From contig CACKXV010000008.1 of NCBI GenBank assembly GCA_902604225.1, forward strand, positions 1 to 35,084: 35,084 bases of DNA. The letters are read 5' to 3'. Under the pieces are notes generated by a model, which saw only the letters and a list, made by a program, of their open reading frames with translations, ran no database searches and was not told where the DNA came from. The DNA is from an uncultured Pelagibacteraceae bacterium. GTDB lineage: Bacteria > Pseudomonadota > Alphaproteobacteria > Pelagibacterales > AG-422-B15. The position numbers and the translations under genes were made by a program. Of the stretch, positions 18,869 through 25,116 are shown piece by piece. How positions within the stretch are numbered: position 1 is the stretch's first letter; each line of letters opens with the position of its first letter.

Positions 18869-19852
18869 ATGAGTATTCTTATAGAAACACTAAAAGGCAA
18901 AAAAACAAAAACTCCCATTTGGTTAATGAGACAGGCGGGAAGACATTTGCCTGAATATATTAAAATAAGACAAAAATATAAAGACCTTATGGAAATGTTT
19001 CTTGATCCTGAGGTGGTAACCAAAATCTCACTTCAACCTGTAAGGCGATATGGGCTGGACGCATGCATAGTGTTCTCTGATATATTAATGATCCCTTATG
19101 CATCTGGATGCGATGTTAGTTTTAAGGAGGGCGTGGGTCCTCAAGTTAAATTTAAAGAGAAATTTAATTTTGAATCACACAAGCTGAACCCAGTTATAAA
19201 AGGCATTGAAAACATCAAAGAGGCATCCGAAGTTCCCTTAATCGGATTTGTAGGCGGACCCTGGACAACGTTGTTGTATTGTTTGTTTGATAAAGAAGAA
19301 AGATCACAAATGAACAAAGGCCTCATTCATAAAAATGAAAAAAGAATAAACAATCATATCGAAGACCTAACCGACATAATTTCTAATTACGCAGTGCAAC
19401 AAGTAAATGCGGGCATTGACGCATTTCAAATATTTGAGTCTGCAGCTCAAGATCTTGAAGACGAATATTTCGATCGATGGTGCCTAAAGCCTACACAAAA
19501 AATTATTCATTCGATAAAAAGTAAAACAGATATACCTATTATTGGATTCCCAAGAAAAACAAGTAAAGAAGGATATGTGAAATATTCAAATATAGATAAA
19601 CTTGATTGTATAAGCTTAGATTACGATTTTGATTTGGACCATATCAATAAACTAAACCCAAATGTTGCCTTTCAAGGAAATCTAAACCCAACAGCCTTAT
19701 TGGCAGAGAATAATATCCTGCAAGAAGAGTTGGATAAAATATTAATTGCTTTTAAAGATAGAGCACATATTTTTAATCTTGGGCATGGGGTGTTACCAAA
19801 CACCTCCATTAAGAAAGTAGAAGAACTCGTAAACACAATAAGAGCAAAATGA
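18869..19852 (+). CDS. hemE: Uroporphyrinogen decarboxylase
   Basis: PIWLMRQAGRHLPEY, VFSDILMIP, GNLNPTALLA, GHGVLPNT. Confidence 0.97.
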   Translation: MSILIETLKGKKTKTPIWLMRQAGRHLPEYIKIRQKYKDLMEMFLDPEVVTKISLQPVRRYGLDACIVFSDILMIPYASGCDVSFKEGVGPQVKFKEKFNFESHKLNPVIKGIENIKEASEVPLIGFVGGPWTTLLYCLFDKEERSQMNKGLIHKNEKRINNHIEDLTDIISNYAVQQVNAGIDAFQIFESAAQDLEDEYFDRWCLKPTQKIIHSIKSKTDIPIIGFPRKTSKEGYVKYSNIDKLDCISLDYDFDLDHINKLNPNVAFQGNLNPTALLAENNILQEELDKILIAFKDRAHIFNLGHGVLPNTSIKKVEELVNTIRAK

Positions 19853-20865
19853 AAACAGCAGTAGTATTATTTAATTTGGGTGGACCCGACAAACAAGAAA
19901 GTGTGAGACCTTTTCTATTCAATCTTTTTAATGATCCAAACATATTTAAGTTACCCAATCCGTTTCGCTTCTTATTAGCAAAACTGATCTCAACTTTGAG
20001 GACAAAAGAGGCAACTGAAATATACTCTGAAATTGGCGGTAAATCACCAATTTTGGACATCACAAACGATCAGGCCACTGCACTTGAAGGGGCCTTAGCA
20101 ATACAGGGCATGCCCTCCAAGGTGTTTGTGTGTATGCGATACTGGCATCCTATGACAACCGAAATCGTTAAAAAGGTAAAAGATTACAATCCAGATAATA
20201 TTTTCTTGCTTCCCCTTTATCCACAATACTCAACTACAACCACCAAATCTTCTTTAGACCTTTGGTTTAAAGAGGCAAAGAAACAAAACTTATCAGCCCC
20301 AACAAAATATACTTGCTGTTATCCAATGGATAAGAAATTCATAGAGTCTCATCAGCGTTTAATACAAAAGAAAATAGATCACATTAAAGATAAAAAGATC
20401 AGGATTTTATTCTCTGCTCACAGCTTGCCTGTATCAATTATTAAAGGCGGTGATCCGTATCAATGGCAGGTTGAACAAACTGTAAGTGCTGTGATTGCCG
20501 GACTTAAAGGATATGATAATCATGTATTAGCTTATCAGAGCAAGGTGACACCTGTTAAGTGGCTTGAACCATCTACACCAAGTGAGATTGAAAAAGCGAT
20601 TAAAGAAGATGCAGCTATTATTATCGTCCCGATTGCTTTTGTTTCAGACCACTCTGAAACTTTAGTAGAGCTTGATATTGAATATAAAGAAATGGCAGAT
20701 GAAATGGGTTACAAACATTATTTTCGTTCAGAGTCTTTAAACATTGATTCTGTATTTATAGATAGTTTAGCTGAAATAGTTACCAAATCAGATAAGACTA
20801 ACAAAGAAAATATTGCTGAAAAAATTTGTCCAACGACATTTAAACGGTGCTATCAGCAAATATAA
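19849..20865 (+). CDS. hemH: Ferrochelatase
   Basis: AVVLFNLGGPD, MRYWHPMT, LPLYPQYSTTTT, FSAHSLP, CC-terminal-type tail. Confidence 0.97.
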   Translation: MKTAVVLFNLGGPDKQESVRPFLFNLFNDPNIFKLPNPFRFLLAKLISTLRTKEATEIYSEIGGKSPILDITNDQATALEGALAIQGMPSKVFVCMRYWHPMTTEIVKKVKDYNPDNIFLLPLYPQYSTTTTKSSLDLWFKEAKKQNLSAPTKYTCCYPMDKKFIESHQRLIQKKIDHIKDKKIRILFSAHSLPVSIIKGGDPYQWQVEQTVSAVIAGLKGYDNHVLAYQSKVTPVKWLEPSTPSEIEKAIKEDAAIIIVPIAFVSDHSETLVELDIEYKEMADEMGYKHYFRSESLNIDSVFIDSLAEIVTKSDKTNKENIAEKICPTTFKRCYQQI

Positions 20866-21308
20866 TGAATAGTATATTTTTATATAATTTATTTTTGAGT
20901 TTGCACATCATCAGTGTGATTGCATGGATGGCTGGACTTCTATATCTACCAAGACTTTTTGTTTACCACTTCACAAAAGAAATTGGATCTGAAACATCTG
21001 AAACTTTCAAATTAATGGAAATACGTTTGCTCAGAGTAATTATGAATCCTGCTATGATATTTTCTTGGTTATTTGGCATAGCCCTTATTTCCACATTAGG
21101 TGTGGAGTCATTAAGTGCACTTTGGCTACAATTAAAAGTTCTCTTTGTACTGCTTTTATCAGGAGTGCATGGTTATTTAGCAAAAATTACAAAGGATTTT
21201 CAGCAAGACAGGCGAGCAAGATCAGAGCGTTTTTATAGAATAATTAACGAATTTCCTACAGTTTTGATGATAATTATTGTATTTTTAGTAATATTTAAGC
21301 CAATTTAA
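20865..21308 (+). CDS. hemJ: Protoporphyrinogen oxidase HemJ
   Basis: LFLSLHIISVIAWMAGLLYLPRLFVYH, multi-TM; follows hemH with overlapping TAATG. Confidence 0.92.
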   Translation: MNSIFLYNLFLSLHIISVIAWMAGLLYLPRLFVYHFTKEIGSETSETFKLMEIRLLRVIMNPAMIFSWLFGIALISTLGVESLSALWLQLKVLFVLLLSGVHGYLAKITKDFQQDRRARSERFYRIINEFPTVLMIIIVFLVIFKPI

Positions 21309-21391: not shown

Positions 21392-22651
21392 ATGAGCTTA
21401 AAATTAAGAGAACTTAAGAAAAAAACTCCACAAGAACTCCTTAAATACGCTGAAGAAACGGGTGTTGAAAACGCAAGTTCTATGCGTACACAGGATATGC
21501 TGTTTGAGATATTAAGATCTCTTGCATCAAACAAGAAGGACATAGACGGAGAAGGTGTGCTTGAAGTTTTACAAGACGGCTTTGGTTTCCTAAGATCAAT
21601 GGAGGCAAATTATTTGCCTGGCCCAGATGATATTTATGTTAGTCCCAGCCAGATTAAAAGGTTCGGATTAAGATCGGGAGATACAGTTGAAGGGCCTATC
21701 AGAGCCCCTAAGGAAGGTGAACGATATTTTGCGTTATTAAAAATTGACACAATCAATTATGAAGCAACTGAAAAAAGTAGAAATAAAATCAACTTTGACA
21801 ACTTAACACCTCTATATCCCGATGAACAAATTAAACTTGAAACAGAAAAGCCCGACAAAGATCAAAGTGCACGAGTTATTGATTTGGTTTCACCAATCGG
21901 TAAAGGCCAAAGAGCTCTTATAGTTTCACCTCCAAGAACAGGTAAAACAGTACTACTACAAAACATTGCACACTCTATTACAGACAATCATCCTGAGTGT
22001 TACTTGATGGTATTGTTAATTGATGAACGACCTGAGGAAGTGACAGATATGCAACGTTCCGTGAAGGGTGAGGTAGTTAGCTCAACATTTGATGAGCCAG
22101 CATCACGTCACGTACAAGTTGCTGAAATGGTTATTAACAAAGCGAAAAGATTAGTAGAGCATAAAAAAGATGTTGTGATCTTGCTCGATTCTATCACAAG
22201 ACTAGGCCGCGCATACAACACGGTTGTTCCAAGTTCAGGAAAAGTTTTAACTGGTGGTGTTGATGCTAATGCACTGCAAAGACCAAAGAGATTCTTCGGA
22301 GCCGCTAGAAACATTGAAGATGGAGGTTCTTTAACCATTATATCTACCGCTCTTATTGATACAGGAAGTAGAATGGATGAAGTTATTTTTGAGGAGTTTA
22401 AAGGTACAGGTAACTCAGAAATCATACTGGACAGAAAAGTCGCTGATAAGAGAATTTATCCTGCTATTGATATAACCAAGTCTGGTACTCGAAAAGAGGA
22501 GATCCTTCTTGATAAAGACGAACTACAAAAAATGTATGTTCTGAGACGTATTCTTAATCCAATGGGAACCATGGACTCCATTGAATTCTTGCTTGGTAAA
22601 TTAAAAGAAACTAAAGATAACGCTGATTTCTTTCAATCAATGAATAAGTAA
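21392..22651 (+). CDS. rho: Transcription termination factor Rho
   Basis: [53 protein letters not shown]. Confidence 0.98.
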
Positions 22652-22660
22652 TCGTTCCAA

Positions 22661-22688
22661 CAATTACCCTTCAGCCTCTAAAATTGAA
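22661..22688. repeat. 28-bp direct repeat, distal copy (CAATTACCCTTCAGCCTCTAAAATTGAA)
   Basis: Identical to 23789-23816; overlaps the deiminase stop codon and duplicates the apt 3' end. Confidence 0.97.
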
Positions 22689-23781
22689 AAGCTGGTTGAT
22701 CATTTGTATGACAATGTATTCCACCTCCAGCTGCCCAAGAGCTTAACATTTCAACCAGATGCACATCACGATTTGGAAAATATTTTTCTATACGAGATTT
22801 CGCTGGGATGTCTGTATCTGGATTTCCAAAACCAGGCACAATTACAAATCCATTTCCTACTAACCAATTCATGTAATTGGTGTCAAATGTTTGCCCGCTG
22901 TACTGAACATAGCCTTCGATAGGTTCTCTTATTACATTAAACCCGGATTTCTCAATTATTTCAGCTGCCTTGTCATAAATCTCAGCGTCCTTACTATCTG
23001 GCTGACACAATGACCGGGTTGTACACTGAACAACAACTGCAGTTGTTTGATCAATAAATCGAGCTATACCATCAATGTGCCCTTTGGTGAGATCTCCATT
23101 TGGAATACCCTCAATAAAAATGACTTTAGATACGCCGAAGTATTTTTTTAGATCAAGTTGCGCCTGCTGTTTACTGTAGTTTAAGTTTCTGCTGGGGTCA
23201 CCAATGGTGCTCCAATTTAATATAACTGTATCTAATCCATTAAATTCTAAATTACCTCGTTCGTGTACTATGTCTATATGATCAACAGGTAAATTTAAAA
23301 TCTCACCAATCTTATTTGGGACTTCATTATCTAAATTAAAAGAGACATCTGAACCAAAAGCACCACCCCATGCATCAAAATTCCAATTTTGAATTCTTAG
23401 TTCATTATCATTAAAAACATAAACAGGTCCATTGTCTCTCATCCAAGCATTATCATTGGGCACTTTGTGCCAATGAATATTGTTTTGCAGTGGGTCGGAA
23501 TCTATATCTAAAATTGATTTTTGTGCTTCTGCATAAATCTGATCTGAATGATAGAGAATATGTAATTTTTCGTATCGTGAAATGATATCAGCCATCTTCG
23601 CAAAAGTTGGCTCATAACTTTTTTCCCAAAAACCAGGCCATTGCATCCATATTGCCTCTTGTGGCTCCCATTCCGCTGGAACACGCTTAGCCCCATGTGT
23701 TGCTTCTTCAGCGGCTTGAATACTAATGCTCATCATAAAAAATATCAATGTGAGGAAGAGAATCCAAATTTTATTTTTCAA
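22678..23781 (-). CDS. Agmatine deiminase / peptidyl-arginine deiminase family protein with predicted signal peptide
   Basis: NDNAWMRDNGPVYV, GHIDGIARF, catalytic GGGIHCHTNDQPA; N-terminus MKNKIWILFLTLIFFMMSISIQA-AEE resembles a Sec signal peptide; TTG start. Confidence 0.9.
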   Translation of the reverse strand: MKNKIWILFLTLIFFMMSISIQAAEEATHGAKRVPAEWEPQEAIWMQWPGFWEKSYEPTFAKMADIISRYEKLHILYHSDQIYAEAQKSILDIDSDPLQNNIHWHKVPNDNAWMRDNGPVYVFNDNELRIQNWNFDAWGGAFGSDVSFNLDNEVPNKIGEILNLPVDHIDIVHERGNLEFNGLDTVILNWSTIGDPSRNLNYSKQQAQLDLKKYFGVSKVIFIEGIPNGDLTKGHIDGIARFIDQTTAVVVQCTTRSLCQPDSKDAEIYDKAAEIIEKSGFNVIREPIEGYVQYSGQTFDTNYMNWLVGNGFVIVPGFGNPDTDIPAKSRIEKYFPNRDVHLVEMLSSWAAGGGIHCHTNDQPAFQF

Positions 23782-23788
23782 TTTTACC

Positions 23789-23816
23789 CAATTACCCTTC
23801 AGCCTCTAAAATTGAA
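23789..23816. repeat. 28-bp direct repeat, proximal copy (end of apt)
   Basis: Identical to 22661-22688; encodes apt C-terminal SILEAEG* plus a few downstream bases. Confidence 0.97.
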
Positions 23817-24331
23817 GACAGTTTAAATTTCTTTCCTAATTTCTGCGAACCTCCAACATTTTTGAGATCGATAATAAAATAAAATTCGATATTTTTTACT
23901 TTGCACTTGGAGATAAGCTTTGCTGAAGCTACAGCGGTACCACCGGTTGCAATTAAGTCATCAATTATTAAAACTCTATCTCTTGAAGTAATCGCATTAC
24001 TATGAATTTGGATTTCGTCGTTGCCGTACTCAAGAGAATATTTTTGCCGCAGAACCTTTCCAGGAAGCTTTCCTTTTTTTCTAATCGGAACAAAAGGAAG
24101 GCCCATCTTAAAAGCAACAGCAGCACCAAAGATGAAACCCCTCGCCTCAACGCCTGCAATTTTGGTAAATTTCTTTTTTCTGGCATACTTTGATATTTCG
24201 TTAACAACTTCAGTAAACAATTTTTTGTTATCAGTAATTGAAGTAATGTCTTGAAAAAGTATCCCCTTCTTTGGAAAGTCAGGAATTACTCGAATATTTT
24301 TTTTTAATTTATTTACGAGTTTTTTGTTCAA
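23792..24331 (-). CDS. apt: Adenine phosphoribosyltransferase
   Basis: IRVIPDFPKKGILFQDIT, VEARGFIFGAAVA, VLIIDDLIATGGTAVA. Confidence 0.97.
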   Translation of the reverse strand: MNKKLVNKLKKNIRVIPDFPKKGILFQDITSITDNKKLFTEVVNEISKYARKKKFTKIAGVEARGFIFGAAVAFKMGLPFVPIRKKGKLPGKVLRQKYSLEYGNDEIQIHSNAITSRDRVLIIDDLIATGGTAVASAKLISKCKVKNIEFYFIIDLKNVGGSQKLGKKFKLSSILEAEG

Positions 24332-24764
24332 CGTTTAACAATTTCTTTTTTGTTTTAATCCCTCCGACCGACGTGAATCCTGTAAGCTTGCCGTCTTTGG
24401 ATACAACGCGGTGGCATGGGACTGACATCATTAAATTATTCCGTCCTAGTGCTCTACCAACTGCCCGTGGAGATGTCCTTAACTTTTTGGCTATCTGACC
24501 GTAGCTTGTAGTGCGGCCATAAGGAACACGTCTCAAGTGGTTCCAAACCCGATTTTGGAAACGAGTTCCCATCTGTCTTGTTGGAAAAGATAGTGACCTT
24601 CGTTTGCGTGCTAGATAGGCGTTAATTTGAAAAGCTGCTCGGAGTAATAGTTTATCTTTAGTGTTGGTAATAGCTTTTCGAGTTCGGCTAATGCCGGTGA
24701 TTTTATTATTACCTGAGATAACCTCTATATTGCCAATCAATGATTTGAAAACATAAGAACTCAT
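24309..24764 (-). CDS. Methylated-DNA-protein cysteine methyltransferase family protein
   Basis: FQNRVWNHLRRVPYGRTTSYGQIA, active-site PCHRVV, RAVGRALGRN. Confidence 0.93.
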   Translation of the reverse strand: MSSYVFKSLIGNIEVISGNNKITGISRTRKAITNTKDKLLLRAAFQINAYLARKRRSLSFPTRQMGTRFQNRVWNHLRRVPYGRTTSYGQIAKKLRTSPRAVGRALGRNNLMMSVPCHRVVSKDGKLTGFTSVGGIKTKKKLLNVEQKTRK

Positions 24765-24795: not shown

Positions 24796-25116
24796 ATGAC
24801 TAACAAATTTTTCGAAAGACATGTTTTTTTCTGTACCAATCAGAGACCAGATGGTCATGAAAAAGGCTGTTGTGCTTCAAAAAAATCTGTCTTACTCAGG
24901 GCCTACATGAAGAAAAAGACAAAAGAAATAGTAACAGATAAAAAAATTAGAATTAATGCATCGGGCTGCCTTGATCACTGTGAGTTTGGTCCGACAATGG
25001 TTATCTATCCTGACAATATCTGGTACACATGTAAATCTGAAAGCGATGTTGATCTTGTCATTGATGAACATTTGATCAATGATCGAGTTGTAGAAAATCT
25101 ATTAATAAAAAAATGA
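24796..25116 (+). CDS. (2Fe-2S) thioredoxin-like ferredoxin
   Basis: VFFCTNQR...KGCC...GCLDHCEFGPTMVIYPDNIWY Cys pattern. Confidence 0.88.
   Translation: MTNKFFERHVFFCTNQRPDGHEKGCCASKKSVLLRAYMKKKTKEIVTDKKIRINASGCLDHCEFGPTMVIYPDNIWYTCKSESDVDLVIDEHLINDRVVENLLIKK

Follow-up and report, generated by a model that had tools for sequence, protein, structure and literature searches.

SAR11 bacteria rank among the most abundant marine bacteria and frequently exchange genes, and the entry of single genes into their core genome without mobile elements is poorly explained. The part of Wilhelm et al. (2007, PMC2217521) drawn on here describes, for SAR11 core regions, polymorphic gene indels as well as rearrangements that cluster at operon boundaries; in that part, the hypervariable regions are reported to contain no integron attC sites. 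Replacement flexible genomic islands are swapped by homologous recombination, and clear hallmarks of illegitimate recombination are lacking at their boundaries (Lopez-Perez et al. 2014, PMC4033161). In this study, we analyzed a one-gene insert between rho and apt in a 35,084-nucleotide stretch of an uncultured Pelagibacteraceae genome (GCA_902604225.1, contig CACKXV010000008.1, positions 1 to 35,084; hereafter, the window). The insert consists of a deiminase gene bracketed by two exact copies of the apt 3' end. It probably arose when a foreign gene was joined illegitimately at the apt 3' end, the resulting allele then being passed between strains by homologous recombination.

The rho–apt insert and its empty sites

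The 28-bp sequence CAATTACCCTTCAGCCTCTAAAATTGAA is present exactly at 22661–22688 and 23789–23816 (reverse strand), 1128 bp apart, and the sequence on both sides of each copy diverges immediately, just as an earlier note on this DNA had described. The copy at 23789–23816 is the true 3' end (SILEAEG*) of apt, the adenine phosphoribosyltransferase gene (reverse strand, 23792–24331; assigned from its reading frame and a profile match). The earlier note called the real apt end the proximal copy, which is right in the sense of nearest to apt and wrong in the sense of the first coordinate. The deiminase gene (reverse strand, 22678–23781; 367 aa, TTG start) begins 10 bp past the apt stop and terminates at a TAG inside the distal copy. 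This copy is indeed out of frame, through a frameshift by one lost T, and supplies the deiminase stop codon. The deiminase is the only gene inside, as expected of a one-gene insert at the apt 3' end, and no integrase gene accompanies it. The slot coincides with an operon boundary between the convergent rho (forward strand, 21392–22651; transcription terminator factor, NCBIfam TIGR00767, 708 bits), which forms the right-hand core flank, and apt, which forms the left-hand core flank and is the source of the tail.

The genome to which the window belongs is about 56% complete. An assembly error is excluded because the same arrangement recurs in at least three further single-cell genomes, each sequenced separately. 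Close relatives of the locus were found in the Pelagibacteraceae single-cell genomes AG-337-G06, AG-333-L20, AG-333-C10, AG-461-B04, AG-900-K14 and AG-337-G05, which places the window in a SAR11-type bacterium.

No further match to the 28-mer with up to three mismatches was found in the window (0 expected by shuffling), and the genome-wide search that the earlier note had proposed returned these two exact copies only in 801 kb. A common intergenic repeat was rejected on this basis. In a scan of 791 kb of the genome, the pair ranked among the four longest exact direct repeats lying 150–8000 bp apart, the remaining long repeats being tandem or low-complexity coding repeats or a scar in a surface-polysaccharide region. 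The scan revealed no second insert bracketed by the 3' end of a gene; a general tendency to 3'-end duplication in this genome was rejected, the apt tail being the single such case.

Two other repeats of the same genome were recorded. A 27-bp exact repeat on contig C11 (locus L137, 395–421 and 2972–2998), which is the scar in the surface-polysaccharide region, links a truncated methyltransferase reading frame to a piece of an rfbG-like gene and looks like another illegitimate-join scar. Contig C7 contains a long alanine-rich coding repeat region (29675–36413) with many internal repeats of 17–23 bp.

The collection comprises 44 genomes of the genus, and the rho–apt junction could be read in 39 of them. 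Eight junctions carry the deiminase, seven an autotransporter cargo only, one a salvage operon only, and 23 are empty, so that the empty sites with one 28-bp copy anticipated in relatives do exist. The last codons of rho and apt are separated by 18 bp in 11 of the empty genomes and by 7 bp in the other 12, which carry a different apt; in deiminase-only alleles, the rho–apt gap is 1146–1147 bp. The empty site of genome G006 equals, letter for letter and through the repeat into the rho stop, the sequence predicted by deleting the insert, with the two stops 12 bp apart as the earlier note had foreseen. All six junctions read from three sister genera are empty as well (gaps of 14–21 bp), some of these genomes carrying a deiminase elsewhere. 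The empty junction is therefore ancestral in the family and the insertion derived, the deiminase having been gained within this genus. Neither of the two findings named in advance as contrary to an insertion was made: the deiminase is not universal among relatives, and the 28-mer is not a common repeat.

The filled alleles differ in content. The deiminase is the sole cargo in G000 (the window's genome), G004, G008, G010 and G016. In G001, it is accompanied by two opposite-strand genes, a pair that seven further genomes, G013 among them, carry without the deiminase. This pair encodes an inverse-autotransporter beta-domain protein (PF11924, as scanned in G001) and a secreted protein without family assignment. 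In G018 and G020, a divergent apt (51–52% identical) is followed by mtnP and mtnA (assigned from sequence) and an aldolase-dehydrogenase fusion gene, which we read as a putative methylthioadenosine-salvage operon with a foreign apt; the G020 slot contains the deiminase in addition. The G036 contig begins inside the deiminase and continues with three opposite-strand genes and then rho. There, the slot encodes an inverse autotransporter with Ig-like repeats (PF11924, PF19078; locus L101, 2140–3672 in apt orientation) together with two related secreted proteins; of these two, the scanned protein has no Pfam match. The rho–apt junction is a hypervariable, swappable gene slot between two convergent operons. 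The expectation that other cargo would be found at this site was borne out by the autotransporter pair and the salvage operon; it failed in that the autotransporter cargo is not bracketed by the 28-mer.

Origin of the tail and spread of the deiminase allele

Relatives of the deiminase in HTCC2255, Planktomarina, SAR116 and other Pelagibacterales are located at unrelated loci, where the protein ends in SISK*, SKSK* or similar (e.g. QPAFSISK*) without an apt-like tail. In the slot, the deiminase ends in frame with the SILEAEG* of apt, as QPAFSILKDEG* in G020, QPAFSLLKTEG* in G016 and QPAISILQDEG* in G001. In the window and in G004, G008 and G010, one T has been lost from a T run and the protein ends early as QPAFQF*, leaving the rest of the tail non-coding. 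The tail is identical to that of apt in G000, G004 and G008, one base off in G010, and drifted in G001, G016 and G020. The similarity of the slot 3' ends to the apt tail was reached in 0 of 5000 shuffles, while native-type deiminase 3' ends gave shuffle P values of 0.09–1.0, with one exception of 0.003 among the seven tested. Since deiminases elsewhere lack the tail, it would have come from the target rather than having been carried with the gene as an attachment (att) site, and it is best read as apt sequence added onto the deiminase gene.

The position of the tail, at the cargo gene's 3' end, and the recurrence of one junction in several backgrounds would also suit a site-specific cassette system, in which XerCD or another enzyme uses the apt 3' end as an att site and inserts genes with a matching 3' tail, in the manner of integron cassettes or pdif modules. 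In G020, moreover, a degenerate tail also follows the salvage operon, with the deiminase directly next to it, at the same join point. We nevertheless regard such a system as improbable. The near-complete genomes contain two full-length tyrosine recombinases (PF00589) each, XerC and XerD to judge by their size and constant presence, and no integron integrase candidate was present in these genomes as judged by the number and length of PF00589 matches, no IntI model having been run. An in-trans integrase was rejected because the near-complete genomes have no full-length tyrosine recombinase other than these two, and none is located next to the insert.

The 28-mer itself matches dif sequences at 11–13 of 28 positions (shuffle P 0.24–0.77), and a dif or pdif site was rejected. 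An attC-like fold or structured RNA was rejected as well, since the 28-mer folds no better than its shuffles (z 0.84 and 0.43); its inverted repeat spans 5 bp only. The cargo likewise speaks against a cassette enzyme: native deiminases have no tail, the autotransporter cargo lacks a tail copy on the rho side, and the drifted tails of G016, G020 and G001 still terminate the deiminase reading frame. The in-trans integrase or dedicated cassette system suggested in the earlier note is not supported: the near-complete genomes have XerC/XerD-type enzymes only, the repeat is not dif-like, the autotransporter cargo is unbracketed, and the deiminases in G036 and at other loci are tailless. A variant in which the apt 3' end is the true att site of a minimal integrase-less SAR11 cassette system, the cargo acquiring the tail and a host recombinase inserting and removing it in trans, is improbable too.

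Carriage by a phage or plasmid was rejected. The viral contigs gave no match for the deiminase protein or the 28-mer, and the deiminase matches among annotated phages and plasmids all fell below 60% identity, with 25–30% among the matches listed.

The slot deiminases form one clade (support 99/97), which points to a single entry into the genus. Their distribution departs from the core trees, requiring seven presence/absence changes on the mnmE tree, five on that of rho and four on that of apt. Three rho-side spacers of 12–13 bp, TTGTTGGAACGA, TTGTTGTTTCGA and TTGATATYTAAGC, each occur in both filled and empty alleles, the join lying at the tail in every case. Sequence identity varies along the locus in a mosaic fashion; as judged from identity profiles, the breakpoints fall in apt and in the deiminase. 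In G016, the left flank is mostly 95–99% like that of the empty G027, and ogt, apt and the deiminase resemble the other clade; in G000, the apt end is like that of G001 and G012 and the deiminase like that of G004. Downstream of apt in G013, the scar TAATTGGGTAAAGTTGA retains some 10 bp from the 5' edge of the deiminase, which run at TTGA into the autotransporter cargo; we read this scar as the probable trace of a lost deiminase and an illegitimate join. The joins at TTCAAT and at TTGA fit one-sided short homology and are too short for significance alone. Taken together, the mosaics, the spacers, G020 and G013 would fit frequent homologous exchange, with the tail as a short crossover site, and occasional short-homology joins.

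These data bear on two further explanations. According to the first, a single ancient insertion in the ancestor of the genus was inherited vertically and repeatedly lost by deletion between the direct repeats. Direct repeats do favour precise deletion, and the apt tail GAGACTGAAGGG of G014 and G031 could be a deletion hybrid, for which a single point mutation would also suffice. However, all 23 empty junctions would have to be losses, including the twelve with a different apt and a 7-bp gap, the remainder of the locus is clearly mosaic, and G016 has a clade-foreign apt–deiminase block beside its G027-like left flank; this history is very improbable. According to the second, an excised deiminase circle with one tail copy enters and leaves by RecA crossover at the apt tail, a Campbell-type event without an integrase. 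The exact 28-bp direct repeats, the precise empty sites and the re-joining to different rho-side spacers all fit such a circle, which is still unlikely: the lower length limit for RecA recombination lies near 28 bp, no circle or tandem copy was seen in the eight deiminase genomes, the mosaic flanks show linear exchange to be already frequent, and the first joining of the tail to the gene is left unexplained.

Under an illegitimate join followed by homologous exchange, the deiminase would have come from another marine alphaproteobacterium by a short-homology join. Its 3' end would have fused to the 3' end of the recipient apt, apparently at TTCAAT/TTCAATTTTA, and its 5' end would have been joined just past the apt stop. 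About 28 bp of the apt end would be duplicated because, in the target, the right join lay upstream of the left one. The allele appears to have spread by homologous recombination, a step partly shown, with crossovers in apt/ogt or rho and inside the duplicated tail, the latter making the deiminase combinable with different rho-side spacers. Exact loss of the deiminase could result from recombination between the two tails, and a dedicated recombinase would not be required. The deiminase probably rides on apt transcription.

Several observations weigh against this account. One native gene, from sister genus g2, ends with AAGGGTAATT, which is common to the apt tail and accounts for the single low P value (0.003) noted above, and some of the tail similarity could have predated the insertion. 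The G036 deiminase has no tail and a native-like end, and its nucleotide difference is 5% from the window's type versus 11–13% from G001, G016 and G020. Because it groups with the window type yet ends native-like, the tail would have been joined or re-used at least twice, as site-specific action would also produce. The first join has a microhomology of only 6 bp, with a shuffle P of 0.57 for one native relative; the left join is not placeable to the exact base.

The deiminase, the hairpin and neighbouring genes

The deiminase belongs to the PAD_porph/agmatine deiminase superfamily (PF04371, 232.8 bits), with intact Asp, His and Cys motifs; the motifs conserved in the alignment are WMRDNGP, KGHIDG and IHCHTND. 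Its N-terminus is hydrophobic and signal-peptide-like. The protein falls well below the level of the agmatine deiminase AguA, scoring 162.4 bits against an equivalog cut-off of 381.8, and an AguA-like paralogue with 28% identity is encoded on another contig of the same genome. By its sequence, the protein is assigned to a putative separate secreted subfamily marked by an ERGN motif. A nearly identical gene neighbourhood of the deiminase was seen in two metagenome-assembled genomes (loci L113 and L114), one labelled Gammaproteobacteria and the other Pelagibacterales, and one of them may be mislabelled or misbinned.

In an AT-rich stem-loop (22648–22667, GTAATCG-TTCCAA-CAATTAC), the stop codon of rho is base-paired with the TAA in the duplicated tail of apt. 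At the empty site, as folded for G006, the pairing involves the two TAA stops and neighbouring bases (GTAATTG/CGATTAC); in the filled site, the distal copy of the tail re-creates this small hairpin adjacent to rho. Pairing was kept in 84% of cells over 11 variants versus at most 43% when slid; covariation was slight and only suggestive. The hairpin is possibly a two-way terminator.

The ogt-like methyltransferase gene (reverse strand, 24309–24764), identified from its reading frame and the loci of relatives, overlaps apt and is a conserved neighbour. Between ogt and mnmE, the window has a 106-aa ferredoxin-like gene (24796–25116), for which four relatives carry a 185-aa nitroreductase-like substitute, as judged by eye; this exchange marks a second swap slot, 1 kb from the rho–apt slot. 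Past rho, hemH and hemJ are found in some genomes (window 19849–21308; loci L065–L067, L071 and L077). In five others, including G004 and G016, their place is taken by another hemH-like gene, of 28% identity, and a HemG-like flavodoxin gene, the latter recognized by eye, and by eye this exchange is a within-genus swap of the protoporphyrinogen oxidase step.

Comparison with known systems

No publication on the rho–apt slot was found in the literature searches made. Like integron cassettes and XerCD-dependent pdif modules, the insert has a promoterless-looking single gene, a 3' repeat and a regenerated target repeat; unlike them, it comes with no integron integrase candidate in the near-complete genomes, no attC-like fold and no dif-like site, and its repeat consists of apt coding sequence. 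On the evidence, ordinary recombination is more likely than a cassette enzyme. In natural transformation, homology-facilitated or double illegitimate recombination can add foreign DNA when one end shares long homology and the other is joined over a short stretch, and the G013 scar, as read from static sequences, appears to have the form of the homology-facilitated kind.

In replacement flexible genomic islands (PMC4033161), too, a position bounded by shared core genes, with conserved flanks, is filled with differing genes. In contrast to them, the rho–apt slot contains one to few genes and bears an apparent hallmark of illegitimate recombination. At this locus, a scar readable at base level, matching empty sites and several types of cargo occur together within one genus, which makes short-join entry followed by homologous exchange testable against site-specific integration.

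The closest match is with the SAR11 polymorphic gene indels as presented in the part of Wilhelm et al. drawn on here (PMC2217521), with which the slot shares single-gene presence or absence at an operon boundary in streamlined genomes. Those indels were recognized there from synteny, without the sequence of the joins, whereas the rho–apt slot offers a join known at single-base resolution, together with the duplicated 3' end, the empty sites and more than one type of cargo. We regard the rho–apt insert as a SAR11 polymorphic gene indel whose scar is visible at base level, a well-resolved trace of a known but poorly explained process.
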